The notes under the pieces are model-generated. The model was not told the DNA's origin. It worked only from the letters and a program-made list of their open reading frames with translations, and did no database searches. A stretch of DNA of 49,623 nucleotides from Bacteroidales bacterium (GTDB taxonomy: Bacteria; Bacteroidota; Bacteroidia; Bacteroidales; UBA932), in NCBI GenBank assembly GCA_017412645.1, contig JAFPWX010000015.1, positions 1 through 49,623 on the forward strand. Reading direction: 5' to 3'. This document shows, in pieces, positions 15,729-49,623 of this stretch. The position numbers and the translations under genes are program-made. How positions within the stretch are numbered: the first letter of the stretch is position 1; each line of letters opens with the position of its first letter.

Positions 15729-17117
15729 ATGAGAATTTTTGAATACATAAAGGTTTCCATGCGGTCGCTGCTCAATTTCCGGGCAGACGTGGACACCGCA
15801 GCGGCAGATCTCAATATCCGGAACAATATTCATTTCAAGGGGACGAACGTGCTGATTCTCGCCTTCTCGATAATCATCGCGTCGGTGGGTCTGAACGTGA
15901 ACTCCACCGCCGTGGTCATCGGCGCAATGTTGATATCTCCCCTGATGGGACCCATCATCGGGTTCGGCCTGGCGGGCAGCATCAACGACACCAAGCTCCT
16001 GCGGGACTCCCTTTGGAACCTGTTGGTGATGGTGGTTATTTCCCTAATGGCATCGGCCATATATTTCCTGCTGTCGCCGCTGGAACTTGCGAACCCGACC
16101 GAACTGGAGGCGCGCACGTCGCCCAGTATCTTCGACGTTCTGATCGCCCTCTTCGGCGGAGCTGCCGGCATTGTTGAGCAAAGCCGCAAGGAGAAGGGGA
16201 CGGTGATCTCCGGAGTGGCGATCGCTACCGCACTCATGCCGCCTCTCTGCACCGCCGGCTATGGCATCGCCCATTGGAACGGGCACTTTTTCTTCGGGGC
16301 GATGGGGCTCTTCGGTATCAATACGATTTTTATCGCCCTGGCCACCTATCTGGTAGCGAAACTGCTCCATTTCAAGGAGGTTCAGTTCGTGGATGCCAAA
16401 AAGGCGCGCATTACCCGTGGATGGGTTTCTGCGCTCGTGGTGATAGTGGTCGTGTTGAGTGGCTGGTCGGCCGTACGCATCGTTAGAAACAATAATTTCC
16501 AGAGTAATGCTGAGGCGTTCGTGAAGGAAAACCGCTCGATGGATAAGGCCTATATCTACGACTATCATATCGACGGAGCCGCCCATAAAGTGGAGATTCG
16601 CGTGACCGGCCGACGCATGTCCGCGGAGATGCGCGACGCAGTGTATGCGAGCGCCGCCGCCCACGGAATTCCTTACGAAGCACTGACGATCACGGAGAAT
16701 ACTCTTCAGGAGACGGAAGATCTGATCCGCAGCGAGCAGATCGCGGGATTCTTCGAGCGTTCGGAGTCGGAGATCACCCGGCGCGACGCCACCATCCTGA
16801 GGTTGCGCGAGCAGCTGGATTCCCTCCAGGCCGCAGTGCTGCCCTCGGAGCAGATCGCCCGCGAGATCCGCAGCAACTATCCTGGTCGGATTGCGGAGGT
16901 GTATCTCTCGAAGGGGGATGCCGTGGAATGGGGCGGGGGCCAGCGCGACACTGTGACCTCCGTTTCGCCCTCCCCCGACGGACTGGTTACCAGCCAGCTC
17001 ACCGTCGTCATCGTCCGGACCATCGGCCGCTTCTCCGCCTCCGAGCAGGAGCGCCTCGCCGACTGGCTTCGCATCCGCCTGAACGACCCGTCGCTGAAAC
17101 TCCTGGTTTCGGAATAA
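15729..17117 (+). CDS. DUF389 family membrane protein
   Basis: The first half carries about six membrane segments with the family's signature VLILAFSIIIASVGLN, STAVVIGAMLISPLMGPI and GVAIATALMPPLCTAGYG. The second half is soluble, from about residue 250. Members are found in many bacteria and function is not established. I placed the start at the ATG at 15729 rather than the upstream GTG at 15660, because the N-terminus MRIFEYIKVSMRSLLNF fits the family and a TACATTTG box (15701-15708) lies just upstream. It is transcribed away from the polysaccharide operon and converges with the Rpn gene. Confidence 0.85.
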   Translation: MRIFEYIKVSMRSLLNFRADVDTAAADLNIRNNIHFKGTNVLILAFSIIIASVGLNVNSTAVVIGAMLISPLMGPIIGFGLAGSINDTKLLRDSLWNLLVMVVISLMASAIYFLLSPLELANPTELEARTSPSIFDVLIALFGGAAGIVEQSRKEKGTVISGVAIATALMPPLCTAGYGIAHWNGHFFFGAMGLFGINTIFIALATYLVAKLLHFKEVQFVDAKKARITRGWVSALVVIVVVLSGWSAVRIVRNNNFQSNAEAFVKENRSMDKAYIYDYHIDGAAHKVEIRVTGRRMSAEMRDAVYASAAAHGIPYEALTITENTLQETEDLIRSEQIAGFFERSESEITRRDATILRLREQLDSLQAAVLPSEQIAREIRSNYPGRIAEVYLSKGDAVEWGGGQRDTVTSVSPSPDGLVTSQLTVVIVRTIGRFSASEQERLADWLRIRLNDPSLKLLVSE

Positions 17118-17144
17118 TTCCTTCGGCCTTTTGGCAGAGGGCCC

Positions 17145-17219
17145 TGACGTTTTCGGCCATTTTTGACGGACCCCCCAGGTTTTTTGCAGGGGGGTGCAGC
17201 ATTTTTGGCCCTTTTTGCT
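17145..17219. repeat. Family A palindromic element, copy 1
   Basis: Left arm TGACGTTTTCGGCC, stem GACCCCCC/GGGGGGT, right arm GCATTTTTGGCCC. Its left half is like the GAC-stem group and its right half like the GCA-stem group. It is intergenic, between the convergent DUF389 and Rpn genes. The minus-strand reading remains open and gives EQKGPKM...SKMAEN, like the coding copies. Confidence 0.85.
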
Positions 17220-17276
17220 CCAGCCATCTCCCTTCACCGGCATCCAACCATCCTTTTCCCACGCATGCCGGCACCC

Positions 17277-17357
17277 AACCTTCATTTTTTGTTTTTTTTG
17301 TCGGTATACCCCTGATTTTTCGGGGGGATACCGTCATTTTCGGCCATTTTTGACGGT
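17277..17357. repeat. Family A palindromic element, copy 2
   Basis: Terminal inverted words AACCTTCA and TGACGGTT enclose a GGTATACCCC / GGGGGATACC stem. The left arm is degenerate (GGCC replaced). The right arm TCATTTTCGGCCATTTT is intact. Intergenic, 57 bp after copy 1. Confidence 0.85.
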
Positions 17358-17402
17358 TCGCTCCACCGTATTCTCCGCCGTATCTCGCCTTTATCGCGGT
17401 TC

Positions 17403-17431
17403 GCCCACATTTTAGGCCTTTTTCGTAGGCG
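17403..17431. repeat. Possible solo arm of family A
   Basis: CACATTTTAGGCCTTTTTCG resembles a single element arm, with CATTTT, GGCC and TTTTT in the right order and spacing. It has no GC-rich stem next to it. It could be a decayed half element or chance. Confidence 0.35.
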
Positions 17432-17576
17432 AGCCTCAATCTTCAGGCTCACTGCCAGCAGGGGCAGGCAGGCAGGCGGTCGGCGGCGGCGAGGAGGGTC
17501 CTCCCTCCAACCCCCCGCAGCTGCCGCCGGGTACCGCCAGCCGCCCGGCTTGCCTTGACGGGCGGCGGAGCCACTC
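17432..17576. other. GC-rich gene-free stretch
   Basis: About 145 bp very rich in GC, with short GGCAGGCA and GGCGGCGG runs. I see no gene here and no family A unit. Confidence 0.4.
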
Positions 17577-18620: not shown

Positions 18621-19967
18621 TTAATGGAGCTCTACTGTGCACCCCTCCGCAATGGATTTTGCGGAAAGGGGCGTGATGGAGGTCCAGAGGGCGAGGTCGG
18701 CGAGGGTCGCGGGGTAGGAGAAGGCTGGGGCCGGCGAGCCGGACTGACCCGCAGCGCCCTCACCCCGAAGATCCTCCTCGATGGCGCGGAGCATGATGTA
18801 GTCCATGCCGCCGTGGTGACGGTCGGCCGCGAGCGCTTCGGCGCCCCAGCGTCGCCACATAGGATCGAGGTACTCCTCAATATACCCGGCGTCGGGCTCC
18901 CACTGCTCGAAGGGGCTACGGCCTTCGATGTAGATGCGGTGGTTGTCTTCGTCCCAGATGCCGCGAGTGCCCTGAATCTCAATACCATAGCTGCGTGGAC
19001 GCGGCAGGGTGGTGTCGTGCGTGAGGGTCAGCAGCTTACCGTCGGAGGTGCGGGCGACGGTCGAGACGATGTCACCCAAGGTAATCTTCGGGCAGCCTGC
19101 GCCGAGCCTTTCGCGAAGACCGGCGGCTTTGGAGGCGAAGGCGGTCACGTTCGCGAGCGTATGCACGTCACCGATGAGGCAGAGCGGGGCGATGCTGTGG
19201 GTCGGGTAGATGTCGGCGTTCTCGCTGGTGTAGAGCCGGCCGCGCCATGCCTCTGAGGGACGCTCGCGAAGGCCGGGGGCCGCGGCGGAGATGGGCGAGC
19301 CAGCGGCAGTAGAAGCGGCGGCGGGCGAACCGGGGGCCGCCGAGCGAGCGACCGGGGCTGCGTCTCCGCCGAGCACTCCGGCGGCATCGACCAGCTCGTC
19401 GCGAAGGTCGTGACGGTAGCCTCCTCGCATCGATACTATCTCCCCGAAAAGGCCCGCGCGGACCATCTCGCGAACGGCGAGGATGTCGCGTCGGAAGATG
19501 ATATTCTCCAGCGGAAACACTTTCCCAGGAAAGCCCATAAGCGGCTGGTATTCACCGAGTTCGCGCCCACCGCGGATTTCCAGGGCGACATGACATCCGG
19601 CCTTCAGGCAGTCGAGCGCCTGGGGGATGTGGCAGTTCCATGGAGAGCAGATGAAGACCAGTTCGGGGCGCTCTTCCGCCAGCATGCGGCGATAGTCTTC
19701 CGGGCCGTCGGAGTAGAGCCGCAAACCCTCGAAGGGATCGGCCGTACCGGTACCCGCCATCGAAGGAGCCCCAGCATTTTCGGCCGATTTTGACGGACCC
19801 CCCTCCCCAAAAGCCTGGGGGATCTGACGTTTTTGGCTGTTTTTGACAGGGCTGCCTGCAAAACGGGGGTCCGCCGCCGCGATCAGCTCGAAGAACGGCA
19901 TCCCCCGAAGCAGACCCAGGATGGTGCGGCCTCGGTATCCGGCTCCTATTATGGCGGTTTTCATCAC
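18621..19967 (-). CDS. Gfo/Idh/MocA family oxidoreductase with an in-frame palindromic element
   Basis: A 448-residue protein. The N-terminal NAD(P)-binding fold starts MMKTAIIGAGYRGRTIL, with FICSPWNCHIPQALDCLKAGCHVALE as the second family block. The C-terminal alpha/beta domain ends in GGMDYIMLRAIEEDL. Between the first beta-alpha unit (AADPRF, residue 35) and LRLYSD (residue 82) there is an extra segment from family A copy 3, roughly residues 40-66 (KRQIPQ... GGPSKSAENAG). Another Ala/Ser/Pro-rich insertion lies at about 200-235. The substrate is unknown and is probably a sugar derivative. Its start is 13 bp after the stop of the M49 peptidase gene, so the two are probably co-transcribed. 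Confidence 0.82.
   Translation of the reverse strand: MMKTAIIGAGYRGRTILGLLRGMPFFELIAAADPRFAGSPVKNSQKRQIPQAFGEGGPSKSAENAGAPSMAGTGTADPFEGLRLYSDGPEDYRRMLAEERPELVFICSPWNCHIPQALDCLKAGCHVALEIRGGRELGEYQPLMGFPGKVFPLENIIFRRDILAVREMVRAGLFGEIVSMRGGYRHDLRDELVDAAGVLGGDAAPVARSAAPGSPAAASTAAGSPISAAAPGLRERPSEAWRGRLYTSENADIYPTHSIAPLCLIGDVHTLANVTAFASKAAGLRERLGAGCPKITLGDIVSTVARTSDGKLLTLTHDTTLPRPRSYGIEIQGTRGIWDEDNHRIYIEGRSPFEQWEPDAGYIEEYLDPMWRRWGAEALAADRHHGGMDYIMLRAIEEDLRGEGAAGQSGSPAPAFSYPATLADLALWTSITPLSAKSIAEGCTVELH
19772..19853. repeat. Family A palindromic element, copy 3 (inside the Gfo/Idh gene)
   Basis: Arms GCATTTTCGGCCGATTTT and TGACGTTTTTGGCTGTTTTT flank a GGACCCCCC / GGGGATC-type stem. It lies in the coding region and keeps the reading frame on the minus strand. 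Confidence 0.85.
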
Positions 19968-22278: not shown

Positions 22279-22364
22279 GCGGTAGACGTCCCGTTTTTTG
22301 GGACGTCTACCGCAAAAAAGGCCAAAAATGCAGTAGGCGTCCCGTTTTTTGGGACGTCTACCGC
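22279..22364. repeat. Twin perfect hairpins, possible double terminator after rimM
   Basis: Two 35-bp hairpins (22279-22313 and 22330-22364). The first has a perfect stem GCGGTAGACGTCCC with loop GTTTTTT. The second has two changes in its left arm. The 16-bp spacer contains AAAAAAGGCCAAAAAT, which resembles a family A arm. Lying about 20 bp after the rimM stop, they may end the rpsP-rimM transcript. Confidence 0.75.
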
Positions 22365-23560: not shown

Positions 23561-23644
23561 GCGGATGTGGTGGAATGGTAGACACGCTACTTTGAGGGGG
23601 TAGTGGGCGTTTGGCCTGTGTGAGTTCGAGTCTCACCATCCGCA
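23561..23644 (+). tRNA. tRNA-Leu (anticodon GAG)
   Basis: 84 nt that fold as a class II tRNA. The acceptor stem is GCGGATG / CATCCGC with discriminator A. The anticodon stem is CTACT / GGTAG with loop TTGAGGG (anticodon GAG). A long variable arm (TGGGCGTTTGGCCTGTG region) and GTTCGAGTC in the T arm complete it. CCA is not encoded. It reads CUC and CUU codons. Confidence 0.95.
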
Positions 23645-33610: not shown

Positions 33611-36385
33611 CTAATAGTCGAATTGTTCCCAGAATTCGGGGAAGGACTTAGCGACGCAGTCGGGGTCGTCGAGCACCACCGGGGAGTCTGCGCCCATCGA
33701 GGCGATCTTTATGGCCATCGCCATGCGGTGGTCGCCGAAAGTCCGGAAAATTCGGCGCTCTGGGGCCGGTATTTCGCTAGCAGCCCTTGCGTTTTTGGCC
33801 GATTTTGACGGCCCCCCCTCGATTTTTGCCGGGGGGTCTGACGTTTTCGGCCCTTTTTGACAGGGCTGCCCCTGACCATCGCCCGCAAAGGATCCGCGCA
33901 GTAGTCGGCCGTTCAGAAGGCGGCTCGGGAGCGTCTCCCCGAAAATGGTCAGGTCGTTCCCGTCGATACGGGCAGGGACGCCGAAGGCTTCCAGCATCTC
34001 CAGTATCGCCGCGGCGCGGTCGGATTCTTTGCCGTGCAGCCGATCGACCCCGTGGAGTACCGTTTCGCCGTCGCAGAAGGCTGCCAGCACAGCGCAGATG
34101 GGGAAGAGGTCGGGGGCGTTGCCGAGGTCGGCTTCGAACGCCTCGAGGGGGGCCTTGCTCACGCAGACGCTTTCGTCGAGCTCCGAAACGACCGCACCCG
34201 CCTGCACGAGGATGTCGGCGATGGCGAGGTCGGCCTGGAGGCTGTCGGTATTCAGGCCGCTCACTTCAGCCTTTCCGAAGATGGCGCCGGCTGTGAGGAA
34301 GTTCGCGGCGGCGCTCCAGTCGCCCTCGAGGGTGAGGTCAGCGGCCTTGTAGTGCTGCCCGCCCTTGATACTGAAGCTGATCTGGGAACAGCCGCTCCAG
34401 TCCTGGTCCTCGATCATGCGCTCGTCGCCCTCCATTTCGGACTTGAGTTTGACTCCGAATTTGCGGAGGATGTCCTCCGTGATGAACATGTATGGGATGC
34501 TCTTAGGCTCTGATATATAGAGGGTTGAATTCTTGGCGCAGAGGGGAAGGGCAGTGAGCAGACCGCTGATGATCTGGCTGCCGTCGGCCCCGGAGACCTC
34601 GGCATTGCCGGGGATGAGAGGCGGGACGACGGTGATGGGGACGCGTTCGCTGCGGATGGGGACTCCGAACGACGCCATGACGTTCTGCACGCCCTTCAGC
34701 GGCCGGCGCAGGAGGGTCTTCTCGCCGGTGATGGTGACGGGGTTCCGGGCGATGGCGGCCATCAGCGGGATGCAGAGCCGGGCGAGGAGGCCGCTCTCGC
34801 CGACGGAGAGGGTGGGAGGGGTGGCGGTTGCGGGGGTTCCGGGGGCGGCGGGGGCTTGACCGGGGGCGGCAGCATTTTCGGCCGATTTTGACGCACCCCC
34901 CTCGATTTTAACCGGGGGGTGTTGCATTTTCGGCGTTTTTTGCAAGGGCGCCCCTCCGGCGTTCCCTCCTGGAACAACCCCTATCCCATCAATGACGAGA
35001 GTGGCGGAGCCGGCGGGGTCGGAGGCGCCGGGGGCCTCTTTGCGCACGGAAGCGCCGAGGGCTCGGGCGACGGCGATGGCGGCCTCGCTGTCGGCGCAGG
35101 GGGTGTAGGCGCGGAGGCGGCTGCGGCCTTCGGCGAGCGCAGCGCAGACGATGGCCCGCTGAGCGAAGCTCTTCGAGCAGGGCACTGCGAGATCGCCGCC
35201 GACGCGCCAGAAGCCCCGGAAGTCGCCATAGACCAGGCGATGCATCTCTTCGAAGTCGTACTGGCCAAGATCGACGGGGGCGATGGGAGCCGCGGCATCG
35301 ATGGGGCAACCGTCATTTTCGGGCGATTTTGACGGTATCCCCCCATTTTTTGAGGGGGATACCTGCATTTTCGGCGTTTTTTGACGGTTGACCTCTTCCC
35401 GAACCCCGGATTGGGAGAACGGGACCCAGGCTTGGGAGGATGGGGCGGCGGCGTAGGAGAAGGGGGCGCCGAGGCGGAGGCATTCGAGGCGGGTTTCGCG
35501 CCCTGCCGGGCCCATCGCGAAGGCAATCAGGCGCCGAGGCTCCTGGCGACCAGAGTCCGGCGTCGAGCACCCCGGCTCCCCTGCATTTTCGGCCATTTTT
35601 GACGGACCCCCTCCGATTTTTGCCGGGGGGTCTGACATTTTCGGCCCTTTTTGACAGGGCTCCTCGGAGATTTGACAGGGCTCCTCGCCGGAACCCATGT
35701 AAAGACTCAGGATCGCATCGCAATCGGCCGGTCCACACGCCGTGGTGACGATCTTAGCGATGTCGGCGCCGTAGCGATAGCAACGGGCCTGGATCTGACG
35801 GAGGTAGTCCAGGTAGGGGGTGCCAGTGAAGTCATGCCAGGAGCGGATAATCTCGACACCGAAGTCGTGGCAGAGGTCGCGGAAGCGCTTGCTCCAGCCG
35901 GCCTCGGCCTCGATTTCCAGATCGGCGTATCGCGCACCCGCCTGAATGGCGAGGGTCATCCGCCGCTCCGCCTCAGCTGGAGAGATACCGCTGGCAGACA
36001 GGGCGGAATTCGCCCCCGCAGCGACTTCCGGAGAGAGGGCGGTAGCATTTTCGGGCGATTTTGATGCACCCCCCTCGATTTTGACCGGGGGGTGTTGCAT
36101 TTTCGGGCAATTTTGATTCCGCACCCGGGCAGCCTCATCGGCAGACCCCATGCCGGCGGCCTCCCCGGCGACGTGCCCGGCAGCACCCTCCGCCGCATCA
36201 CCCCAACCCCAGTCCGCGCGACAGGTGGCGATGAGGGGGGTGTCGGTATTAGAAAAGAGGTCTTCTATCTCGGCGTCGGAGAGGGGGCAGAAGTCCAGTC
36301 GGATCTCGGCCAGCTCGACCCAGGGGTCGTCCAGGAGCGAGAGTATCTCGGCGTAGGTCTTGCCTTGTATTACTGTTGCTATCAT
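33611..36385 (-). CDS. Fused 3-dehydroquinate dehydratase / EPSP synthase with five palindromic-element insertions
   Basis: 924 residues covering two shikimate-pathway enzymes. The AroD part (about 1-390) keeps EIRLD (27-31), TCR (54-56), the catalytic His in SWHDFTGTP (184), the Schiff-base Lys in ADIAKIV (211) and FAMGPAGRETRL. The AroA part (about 391-924) keeps PCSKSFAQRA, VGESGLLARL, DGSQIISGLL, EGDWSAAANFL, APDLFPI (Asp 759), KESDR, DHRMAM and KSFPEFW. Separate enzymes would total about 650 residues. The excess is five segments from family A copies (about 90-113, 245-268, 334-358, 482-506, 842-866) and Ala/Pro-rich linkers. All known active-site motifs survive, so the enzyme may still work. 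Confidence 0.88.
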   Translation of the reverse strand: MIATVIQGKTYAEILSLLDDPWVELAEIRLDFCPLSDAEIEDLFSNTDTPLIATCRADWGWGDAAEGAAGHVAGEAAGMGSADEAARVRNQNCPKMQHPPVKIEGGASKSPENATALSPEVAAGANSALSASGISPAEAERRMTLAIQAGARYADLEIEAEAGWSKRFRDLCHDFGVEIIRSWHDFTGTPYLDYLRQIQARCYRYGADIAKIVTTACGPADCDAILSLYMGSGEEPCQISEEPCQKGPKMSDPPAKIGGGPSKMAENAGEPGCSTPDSGRQEPRRLIAFAMGPAGRETRLECLRLGAPFSYAAAPSSQAWVPFSQSGVREEVNRQKTPKMQVSPSKNGGIPSKSPENDGCPIDAAAPIAPVDLGQYDFEEMHRLVYGDFRGFWRVGGDLAVPCSKSFAQRAIVCAALAEGRSRLRAYTPCADSEAAIAVARALGASVRKEAPGASDPAGSATLVIDGIGVVPGGNAGGAPLQKTPKMQHPPVKIEGGASKSAENAAAPGQAPAAPGTPATATPPTLSVGESGLLARLCIPLMAAIARNPVTITGEKTLLRRPLKGVQNVMASFGVPIRSERVPITVVPPLIPGNAEVSGADGSQIISGLLTALPLCAKNSTLYISEPKSIPYMFITEDILRKFGVKLKSEMEGDERMIEDQDWSGCSQISFSIKGGQHYKAADLTLEGDWSAAANFLTAGAIFGKAEVSGLNTDSLQADLAIADILVQAGAVVSELDESVCVSKAPLEAFEADLGNAPDLFPICAVLAAFCDGETVLHGVDRLHGKESDRAAAILEMLEAFGVPARIDGNDLTIFGETLPSRLLNGRLLRGSFAGDGQGQPCQKGPKTSDPPAKIEGGPSKSAKNARAASEIPAPERRIFRTFGDHRMAMAIKIASMGADSPVVLDDPDCVAKSFPEFWEQFDY
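33789..33866. repeat. Family A palindromic element, copy 4 (in aroDA)
   Basis: GAC-stem type: GGCCCCCCC / GGGGGGTCTG stem with GATTTTTGCC loop, arms TTTTTGGCCGATTTT and TTTTCGGCCCTTTTT. It encodes QKGPKTSDPPAKIEGG then SKSAKNA near residues 843-866. Confidence 0.9.
34871..34947. repeat. Family A palindromic element, copy 5 (in aroDA)
   Basis: GCA-stem type: GCACCCCCC / GGGGGGTGTTGC stem. Encodes QKTPKMQHPPVKIEGG then SKSAENA near residues 482-506, inside a loop of the AroA part. Confidence 0.9.
35308..35389. repeat. Family A palindromic element, copy 6 (in aroDA)
   Basis: GTATC-stem type with perfect terminal inverted repeats CAACCGTCA / TGACGGTTG and stem GGTATCCCCC / GGGGGATACC. Encodes RQKTPKMQVSPSKNGG then SKSPEND, near the AroD-AroA junction (residues 334-358). 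Confidence 0.92.
35582..35658. repeat. Family A palindromic element, copy 7 (in aroDA)
   Basis: GAC-stem type: GGACCCCC / GGGGGGTCTG stem. Encodes QKGPKMSDPPAKIGGG then SKMAENA near residues 245-268 of the AroD part. Confidence 0.9.
36044..36117. repeat. Family A palindromic element, copy 8 (in aroDA)
   Basis: GCA-stem type: ATGCACCCCCC / GGGGGGTGTTGCAT stem. Encodes NCPKMQHPPVKIEGG then SKSPENA near residues 91-113, after the TCR motif of AroD. Confidence 0.9.
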
Positions 36386-43351: not shown

Positions 43352-43413
43352 GGGCGCTTTAGGGACTGGCCGAGGGCACGGCTTAAGCCGGCGGCACCCC
43401 TCCAAGACCCAGG

Positions 43414-43500
43414 CAACCGTCAAAAAACGCTAAAAATGTCGGTATCCCCCTAAAAATTTGGGGGGATACTGTCATTTTTGGCCTAAAATGAAGGTTGACC
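43414..43500. repeat. Family A palindromic element, copy 9 (inverted relative to copy 6)
   Basis: AACCGTCA ... GAAGGTTG ends and stem GGTATCCCCC / GGGGGGATAC. Its left arm matches the reverse complement of copy 6's right arm at nearly every base, so it points the other way. Intergenic, between the convergent GH109-like and phosphatase genes. It contains stop codons, unlike the coding copies. Confidence 0.88.
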
Positions 43501-46306: not shown

Positions 46307-46317
46307 AGTTCTATAGG

Positions 46318-46403
46318 CAACCGTCATTATAAGCCAAAAATGAAGGTATCCCCCTTATTTTTTTGGGGGATACCGTCAATAATAGCCAATTTTGAAGGTT
46401 GAC
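46318..46403. repeat. Family A palindromic element, copy 10 (next to the RAYT-like gene)
   Basis: Very palindromic: CAACCGTCA on the left, GAAGGTTGACG on the right, with a stem GGTATCCCCC / GGGGGATACC around a T-rich loop. It lies 12 bp after the transposase stop and 60 bp before the convergent GH20 gene. Confidence 0.9.
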
Positions 46404-46465
46404 GCCTCTCCGACCCCGCAGGACGCCTCTCCAAGCCCGCGAGCCACATCCTTAGCCCCGCCGCC

Positions 46466-49520: not shown

Positions 49521-49623
49521 ACAAAGAAGAGTTTGATCCTGACTCAGGATGAACGCTAGCGGCAGGCTTAACACATGCAAGTCGAGGGGCAGCGCGGGTA
49601 GCAATACCTGGCGGCGACCGGCG
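49521..49623 (+). rRNA. 16S ribosomal RNA, 5' part
   Basis: Starts with AGAGTTTGATCCTGACTCAG (E. coli positions 8-27) and continues GATGAACGCTAGCGGCAGGC and AACACATGCAAGTCGAGGGG, as in Bacteroidales. Only the first 100 or so bases are in the window. Position 22 is A where most bacteria have G. It would still pair with U12 in helix 1. Confidence 0.95.

Follow-up and report, generated by a model that had tools for sequence, protein, structure and literature searches.

Palindromic elements dispersed in bacterial genomes have been described in several forms, for which excerpts of PMC3733652, PMC6006769, PMC8266576 and PMC3116915 serve as sources throughout. The transposase TnpAREP cleaves and rejoins repetitive extragenic palindromic (REP) sequences (PMC6006769, PMC8266576), and the Bacteroidetes TnpAREP subclass 2.6 is flanked by 'atypical secondary structures' having copies elsewhere in the genome (PMC6006769). 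CGTC REPs are recorded for Bacteroidetes and come without an apparent dedicated transposase; the Rickettsia palindromic elements (RPEs) RPE-4 and RPE-6 belong to this class (PMC3733652). Intragenic GTAG and CGTC REPs occur in several species, with some genes having two insertions (PMC3733652), and REPs lie in frame inside tnpAREP genes of subclass 2.4 (PMC6006769). As a kind, in-frame intragenic hairpin elements are already known from Rickettsia (RPE-4, RPE-6) and O. terrae, in-frame palindromic inserts having previously been best known from Rickettsia. Here we analyse five such elements inside the fused shikimate-pathway gene aroD-aroA (aroDA) of a Bacteroidales bacterium, located on a stretch of 49,623 nucleotides (nt) of contig JAFPWX010000015.1, the whole of which we call the window. 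The study is sequence-based and covers one draft genome with approximate gene calls, to which genomes of the same genus were compared. With moderate confidence we consider the five inserts to be REP/REPIN-like (REPIN, REP doublet forming a hairpin) non-autonomous hairpin elements, mobilised in trans by REP-associated tyrosine transposase (RAYT)-like Y1 HUH proteins, of which the in-frame copies have been selected. An earlier reading of the letters alone (the sequence-only reading) had noticed the inserts and knew of no described family of this kind in Bacteroidota, which is too strong a statement considering the CGTC REPs (PMC3733652) and TnpAREP 2.6 (PMC6006769).

The gene and its inserts are the following, with scores from a covariance model (R1) built from an alignment (A1) of eight window copies, and with stem families of this genome labelled A to I for the present analysis:

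33611..36385, minus strand: aroD-aroA fusion (type I 3-dehydroquinate dehydratase and 5-enolpyruvylshikimate-3-phosphate (EPSP) synthase), 924 amino acids (aa), hosting the five elements
36038..36127, minus strand: element 1, stem type C, R1 87.6 bits, AroDA residues 87-116
35576..35665, minus strand: element 2, stem type A, R1 91.1 bits, AroDA residues 241-270
35306..35395, minus strand: element 3, stem type B, R1 96.4 bits, AroDA residues 331-360
34865..34954, minus strand: element 4, stem type C, R1 94.0 bits, AroDA residues 478-507
33782..33871, minus strand: element 5, stem type A, R1 97.4 bits, AroDA residues 839-868

All five elements, of about 84-90 bp, share one orientation and one frame, i.e. 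the minus strand and the aroDA frame, just as the sequence-only reading had described them. Its region, 33789-36117, was right and its outer stems were slightly trimmed, the elements reaching 33782 and 36127; the peptides it listed are indeed related, being more variable than it stated, since one copy starts NQNCPKM and PSKNGGIPSKSPEND is also present. The core motif TCAAAANNNGCCGAAAATG occurs 20 times in the window at up to three mismatches, compared to 0.54 expected occurrences, and none of 100 shuffles reached 20. From the N- to the C-terminus the stem types follow the order C-A-B-C-A. This alternation of three types rules out a tandem duplication of one copy within aroDA, and because three types are present the gene would have received insertions at least three times.

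Each element folds as one rod consisting of an outer stem, a linker, an inner stem with its loop, a second linker and the outer stem, so that in types A-C a linker-hairpin-linker unit is closed by the outer stem. The linker reads CAAAA-NN-GGCC-N-AAAATG on both arms, so A tracts oppose A tracts, and the two conserved A4-NN-GGCC-N-A4 linkers of an element lie approximately 52 bp apart, a spacing of 51-52 bp that recurs in other stem types. The stems are variable in sequence yet kept paired. For 47 of the 56 places found in the genome (see below), aligned by MAFFT without the model and scored on the A1 structure, 80.7% of the stem cells were paired and the covariation score was 0.400, compared to a mean of 0.146 for shuffled alignments and 0.119 for the best slid version; two-sided changes were observed in 212 cells versus 95 in shuffled data, with none of 500 shuffles being as high. 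A weaker measure of covariation gave 19 pairs changed on both sides against 17.3 in shuffled data, with 74 of 500 shuffles reaching 19; in the GGCC helix, just 66.8% of cells were paired. Inside a linker, the A tracts follow each other at about 10.5 bp, and the linkers, at about 52 bp, are near five helical turns apart, a spacing that may result in phased bent DNA.

Dispersed, often paired hairpins with species-specific stems are features shared with the E. coli REPtron, with bacterial interspersed mosaic elements (BIMEs) and with REPINs (PMC6006769, PMC8266576, PMC3116915). Unlike REPs and REPINs, the elements have no GTAG/GTGG foot; their conserved part is the A4-GGCC-A4 linker between the hairpins, the linkers repeat in direct orientation, and 26 of 56 copies are intragenic. 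By inspection, the stem types do not all share a canonical REP tetranucleotide (GTAG/GTGG or CGTC) at the foot of the hairpin. Many copies of types A and B have CGTC or TGTC ahead of the linker; types D-F and the elements of several other species do not. The window elements gave no match to Rfam at the gathering threshold.

The host protein appears intact around its inserts. The aroDA reading frame at 33611-36385 is open through 924 codons without a stop or a frameshift, which answers the concern of a pseudogene raised along with the sequence-only reading, and the protein matches EPSP_synthase and DHquinase_I. In an alignment with seven orthologues, confined to checked open reading frames (ORFs), H184 and K211 of the dehydratase part and SKSFAQR, GESG, RP, DHRM and K913 of the EPSP synthase part are invariant; we take these residues to be catalytic or substrate-binding, and the AroD and AroA motifs reported as intact are conserved accordingly. 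The alignment suggests that the element-bearing AroDA is a functional protein. AroDA matches are found in 112 of the 121 genus genomes searched (own genome counted), the closest relative showing 75% identity across residues 515-832. The seven aligned orthologues have 642-668 aa compared to 924 aa here, and all five elements are cleanly absent from 7/7, an alignment that had been proposed as a check on the inserts. An excess of about 270 residues had been estimated correctly: 262 residues are gapped in at least six of the seven orthologues and form seven runs, five of which contain elements. The elements account for approximately 150 of these residues (5 x 30), and the remaining approximately 110 consist of Ala/Gly/Pro/Ser-rich stretches adjoining them.

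The inserts belong to a family dispersed over the genome. An R1 search gave 79 lines resolving into 56 places in 1.8 Mb, i.e. a short palindrome present in many dispersed copies as in canonical REPs. The count used 69 of the 79 lines and includes two overlapping pairs in tandem arrays on contigs C9 and C18; of the ten weakest lines, which were left out, nine repeat listed places on the other strand and one is a separate degenerate copy at window 17371-17437. According to a simple codon-usage gene caller giving approximate calls, 26 places are intragenic and 30 intergenic, so the family is not mainly genic, contrary to what the idea of a spread within genes had implied. The search of coding genes suggested at that time located 24 intragenic copies in 17 genes with Pfam matches, which substantiates the likeness to Rickettsia RPEs drawn in the sequence-only reading. 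Names beyond the Pfam names being interpretive, these genes encode AroDA (five copies), RsmE-like, radical-SAM HemW-like and DsbD proteins (two copies each) and, with one copy each, an OstA-like protein, ApbE, GH109/Gfo-Idh, the ATP synthase gamma subunit, HU-CCDC81, an AmpG-like transporter, a GHMP kinase (IspE-like), DUF3109, an S15 peptidase, a major facilitator superfamily (MFS) protein, an outer-membrane protein (OMP) barrel, an aspartokinase-homoserine dehydrogenase and a UPF0004/radical-SAM MtaB-like protein. The two elements in each of the rsmE-, hemW- and dsbD-like genes differ in stem type. For the other two intragenic copies (C4:53459 and C11:42696) the gene call is weak or without a Pfam match.

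Intragenic copies are strongly uniform in orientation and frame: 24 of 26 are oriented with the gene and two opposite to it, and 22 of the 25 copies of at least 80 nt use one frame, measured at the right-hand linker. In this analysis of 54 copies, from which two short ones (68 and 37 nt) were dropped, the frame use beat all 20,000 uniform draws among each copy's own open frames. The favoured frame is open in 23/25 intragenic and in 18/29 intergenic copies, and the earlier proposal that the absence of stops in this frame causes the spread is insufficient, as the frame is open in those 18 intergenic copies and yet 22/25 intragenic copies use it. Peptides encoded in forward frames are hydrophilic, with mean hydropathies of -1.3 to -1.1, those in reverse frames neutral to mildly hydrophobic (0.0 to 0.3). 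In a tree of the elements, built from few columns and with many forks open, intragenic and intergenic labels cluster, with 10 changes compared to a shuffled mean of 18.1 and none of 500 shuffles as low. Selection among genic insertions is the simplest explanation of the frame bias and would then be its cause; a codon-phase or strand bias of the insertion itself is another possibility. A self-removing or bypassed insert is not needed, the copies in recognised genes being read through in frame.

One frame in 22/25 intragenic copies and the similarity of the encoded peptides could also be expected if proteins had gained a selected peptide or linker domain to which the DNA palindrome is secondary. 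We consider this very improbable, as 30/56 places are intergenic, the host proteins have no evident common function, the arms change together with base pairing and loop changes of 1 nt put the left half into another frame. As described in PMC3733652, RPE-4, RPE-6 and RPE-1 are likewise in-frame palindromes in functional genes, sometimes two per gene, and RPE dimers or groups encode 20 to 30 residues; the present elements differ, by description, in having no CGTC tag common to the stem types and in their longer stems and loops. REPs of the subclass 2.4 tnpAREP genes (PMC6006769) and the GTAG REPs of O. terrae (PMC3733652) also lie within coding sequence, those however having a GTAG foot, whereas the elements described here occupy core metabolic hosts with up to five copies per gene.

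For 26 intergenic copies with both flanks called, the neighbouring genes are convergent in 17 cases, co-directional in seven and divergent in two (approximate calls), and a prevalence of convergent or co-directional neighbours is also found in REP/RAYT systems (PMC6006769, PMC8266576), in which, as here, hairpins flank a RAYT. A terminator-only role was considered and rejected. The 17/26 copies between convergent genes, as for REPs, along with the strong covariation, the linker conserved across species having different stems and the ~52-bp spacing kept in several stem types, would be in agreement with a selected functional hairpin module in mRNA or DNA, e.g. protein-binding or mRNA-stabilising, for which the peptide is incidental. 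A hairpin-recognising transposase would impose conservation of structure too, the elements are patchily present among orthologues and relatives, and five copies in one coding sequence have no evident regulatory use, all of which makes such a module improbable in our view.

Several intergenic copies form composite arrays mixing stem types D, A and B; in several arrays B follows A, which looks like copying of the array as a unit:

window 17080-17480; locus L110, 3950-4600; L123, 3380-3700; L131, 3450-3780; L120, 3460-3880: composite intergenic arrays

Tandem type-E hairpins with a period of ~52 bp form the ends of contigs C9 and C18 (L117 1-260 and L130 1-260) and probably break the assembly there. 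These ends and the draft state of the genome (26 contigs) are what could be brought forward for an assembly or binning artefact or a decaying pseudogene, to which we give practically no credence: aroDA runs through 924 codons without stop or frameshift and its catalytic-motif residues are invariant, the same pattern is present in 17 Pfam-recognised genes, and another assembly contains the HU-like gene together with its element (contig C51 of bin G145, 99.66% identical to the own genome over 2047 bases).

Candidate enzymes for mobilising the elements are encoded in the same genus, Y1_Tnp (PF01797) genes being present in 46 of 61 genus genomes. Over whole genomes and with uniform placing as the null, 3 of 62 R1 matches have a Y1 domain no more than 1 kb away, against an expectation of 0.19 (P 0.001); two of these flank one gene in genome G015. 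For the linker pattern, at least 3 of 53 matches are that near, compared to 0.16 expected (P 0.0006). At several loci, RAYT-like genes are flanked by the hairpins, two of them in the own genome:

C8:63047-64159: RAYT-like gene P0002, with a hairpin pair directly downstream and a second pair about 2.3 kb upstream
C17:70394-71320: RAYT-like gene P0003, flanked on both sides by a linker and its arms, at distances of 83 and 350 bp

The stem of P0002 (type H, up to three mismatches) is found at 16 places in the own genome and its reversed-pattern control at none. Fourteen of these places form seven pairs 51-52 bp apart, including window 22283/22334; four belong to the two pairs beside the P0002 gene, and one pair lies in frame in the S15-peptidase gene. 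In genome G004, a stem flanking RAYT P0004 on both sides is found at 11 places (up to one mismatch; reversed-pattern control 0), of which four are beside the gene, two form a pair ~5.5 kb away and five are single on other contigs. Type H with P0002 and the G004 stem with P0004 thus show the arrangement of a REPtron, a Y1 HUH gene flanked by dispersed hairpins. That RAYT flanks have stems in common with dispersed copies, as seen in two genomes, fits a co-evolution of enzyme and element.

The RAYT-like proteins carry the expected residues, H75, H77 and Y134 of P0003 (HxH and tyrosine) being invariant in 13 sequences; NHVH is present in most and the tyrosine motif is mostly Y[VI]xMN. The NCBIfam model REP_Tyr_transpos matches P0002-P0005 with E-values of 3e-8 to 6e-6, below the family cut-off, and a phmmer comparison of P0003 with solved structures gave no match. 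TnpAREP subclass 2.6 (PMC6006769) resembles the present system in the phylum, the NHVH-type motif and atypical gene-adjacent hairpins dispersed in the genome, and differs in its WQ and YIH[QN]NP motifs, which are absent here, the hairpins being compared by description only.

Among 41 Y1 loci, a linker with complementary arms lies within 400 bp of the ORF at 8/13 RAYT-type loci (proteins with SNH[VF]HF or DNH[FL]HF) and at 4/28 other Y1 loci (p 0.0036), a comparison biased by eight of the 41 loci having been picked for an already known nearby element or motif. Matches outside the ORF within 400 bp make up 15/17 at RAYT-type and 4/13 at other Y1 loci, and control aroDA loci gave 8 linker matches in 111 kb. 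The strict linker scan gave one match in the 41 loci, the looser thresholds being chosen afterwards, and the flank scan misses hairpin pairs that are plain by eye at the RAYT loci L206 and L228.

Several results, this selection bias being one of them, weigh against a mobilisation of the aroDA inserts by RAYT-like proteins. Without the eight preselected loci the numbers fall to 2/6 versus 4/27 (p 0.30), with 4/6 versus 6/27 (p 0.053) at a looser threshold and 1/6 versus 1/27 at a stricter one. This assembly has four Y1 genes, and no RAYT flanked by stem types A, B or C is found among them; the RAYT flanks show a hairpin-linker-hairpin pair, compared to the linker-hairpin-linker with outer stem of types A-C. 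The WQ motif of REP-binding subclasses (table in PMC6006769) is absent from 13/13 RAYT-like proteins. No target site or precise junction can be defined for the inserts because they bring extra Ala/Pro-rich DNA with them.

Together, the data favour a model according to which the unit is a stem-loop of variable sequence joined to its neighbour by an A4-NN-GGCC-N-A4 linker with a period of ~52 bp. As single-stranded DNA (or RNA), the element would fold into a long rod with A.A internal loops, and the RAYT-like protein, recognising the hairpin-linker structure in the single-stranded state, would place copies at other sites; catalysis by RAYT on the elements and their transposition are proposed here by analogy to TnpAREP. 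Copies would arrive both between and within genes, and genic copies would persist only if the frame is kept and the hydrophilic loop tolerated, stop-bearing frames being lost, so that one orientation and frame come to dominate. A more specialised version, which we regard as a tentative possibility, assumes a RAYT-driven sub-lineage adapted to genes, encoding a harmless loop in one frame, inserting with a strand and phase bias, multiplying in essential genes without breaking them and alternating stem types to avoid deletion.

Related genomes show the same architecture in a patchy distribution. R1 matches at E<=0.001 are present in 33/121 genus genomes (own included), and in the subset of 72 relatives' matches inspected the linker is kept and the stems are species-specific. 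In-frame copies lie in Pfam-matched ORFs for a Mur ligase (folC-like) in G069, for MatE and DUF4271 in G109, the latter near the N terminus, and for HrpB and an OMP in G132; two of seven element-bearing ORFs scanned (L141, L185) gave no Pfam family, and many further copies in short or spurious-looking ORFs were left unclassified. A pattern scan of contigs for two linkers 28-46 bp apart gave at least 120 loci. Among 120 listed, 11 pair at least six of the eight arm bases at each of the two linkers. These 11 come exclusively from Bacteroidales or Bacteroidia metagenome-assembled genomes (MAGs) and, wherever the title names an animal, from a ruminant; most of the other listed loci resemble low-complexity chance matches. 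L355 misses this arm threshold despite a clear type A element.

This locus L355 (contig JAFTEQ010000025.1, from goat rumen) shares 89% identity with the C13 region of the own genome and shows that single insertion sites differ between near relatives. The ampG-like site has a type C element here and type A in L355, and the DUF3109 gene has an element here and none in L385 (bin of L355), with the frame open in both. The HU-like gene carries the same element in both genomes; the copies are identical (L123 4666-4755 versus L355 3948-4037) though the surrounding DNA is only ~89% identical, which suggests recent conversion or constraint. The bin, G145 (JAFTEQ/RGIG3749), looks chimeric: in addition to the near-identical contig C51 mentioned above it contains a contig C79 of ~89% identity to the own genome, and its aroDA is only 68% identical to the own aroDA and has no long inserts.

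The exchange of stem types at the ampG-like site, the identical HU-like element in diverged surroundings, the Ala/Pro-rich runs expanding beside inserts and the absence from this assembly of a RAYT with A, B or C flanks are what one would expect if the elements spread by recombination or gene conversion and linker slippage without a dedicated enzyme, RAYT flanks merely being sites where hairpins accumulate. We judge this spread unlikely: three stem types in one gene and 17 unrelated Pfam-recognised hosts need new arrivals, the RAYT-adjacent stem recurs elsewhere in two genomes with different stems, and elements near Y1 genes exceed the uniform expectation. Mobilisation in trans by RAYT-like proteins remains our preferred explanation.

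In the titles and abstract openings covered by our literature search there is no description of the A4-GGCC-A4 linker or of in-frame palindromes in this genus. As far as this search shows, the linker architecture, the link to RAYT-like proteins, the density and frame uniformity of the genic copies and the five copies in aroDA are new. One genome alone has two dozen in-frame copies in genes that can be recognised, and the genus combines an in-frame family, a candidate transposase in the same genomes and well over a hundred species genomes, so that both the spread of the elements and the tolerance of proteins towards inserts become testable in gut Bacteroidales. The A4-GGCC-A4 linker with free stems provides a motif for finding similar elements elsewhere.

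Outside aroDA, the window contains further copies:

19767..19857, minus strand: type A element, in frame in the Gfo/Idh/MocA-type (Glyco_hydro_109_C) gene 18621-19967
17140..17229, minus strand: intergenic type A element, part of an array, found by R1
17275..17364, minus strand: intergenic type B element, in the array of the 17140..17229 copy, with the degenerate copy at 17371-17437
22283..22360, plus strand: pair of type-H hairpins, 51 bp apart, with the conserved linker between them
43409..43498, plus strand: intergenic type B element between convergent genes, found by R1
46313..46406, matched on both strands: intergenic type B element, more fully paired

The type-H pair at 22283..22360 is two to three mismatches away from the stem family beside the RAYT gene P0002. 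A tRNA lies at 23561-23644, and the window ends (49521-49623, plus strand) inside a bacterial 16S rRNA gene, of which it includes the first 100 positions.

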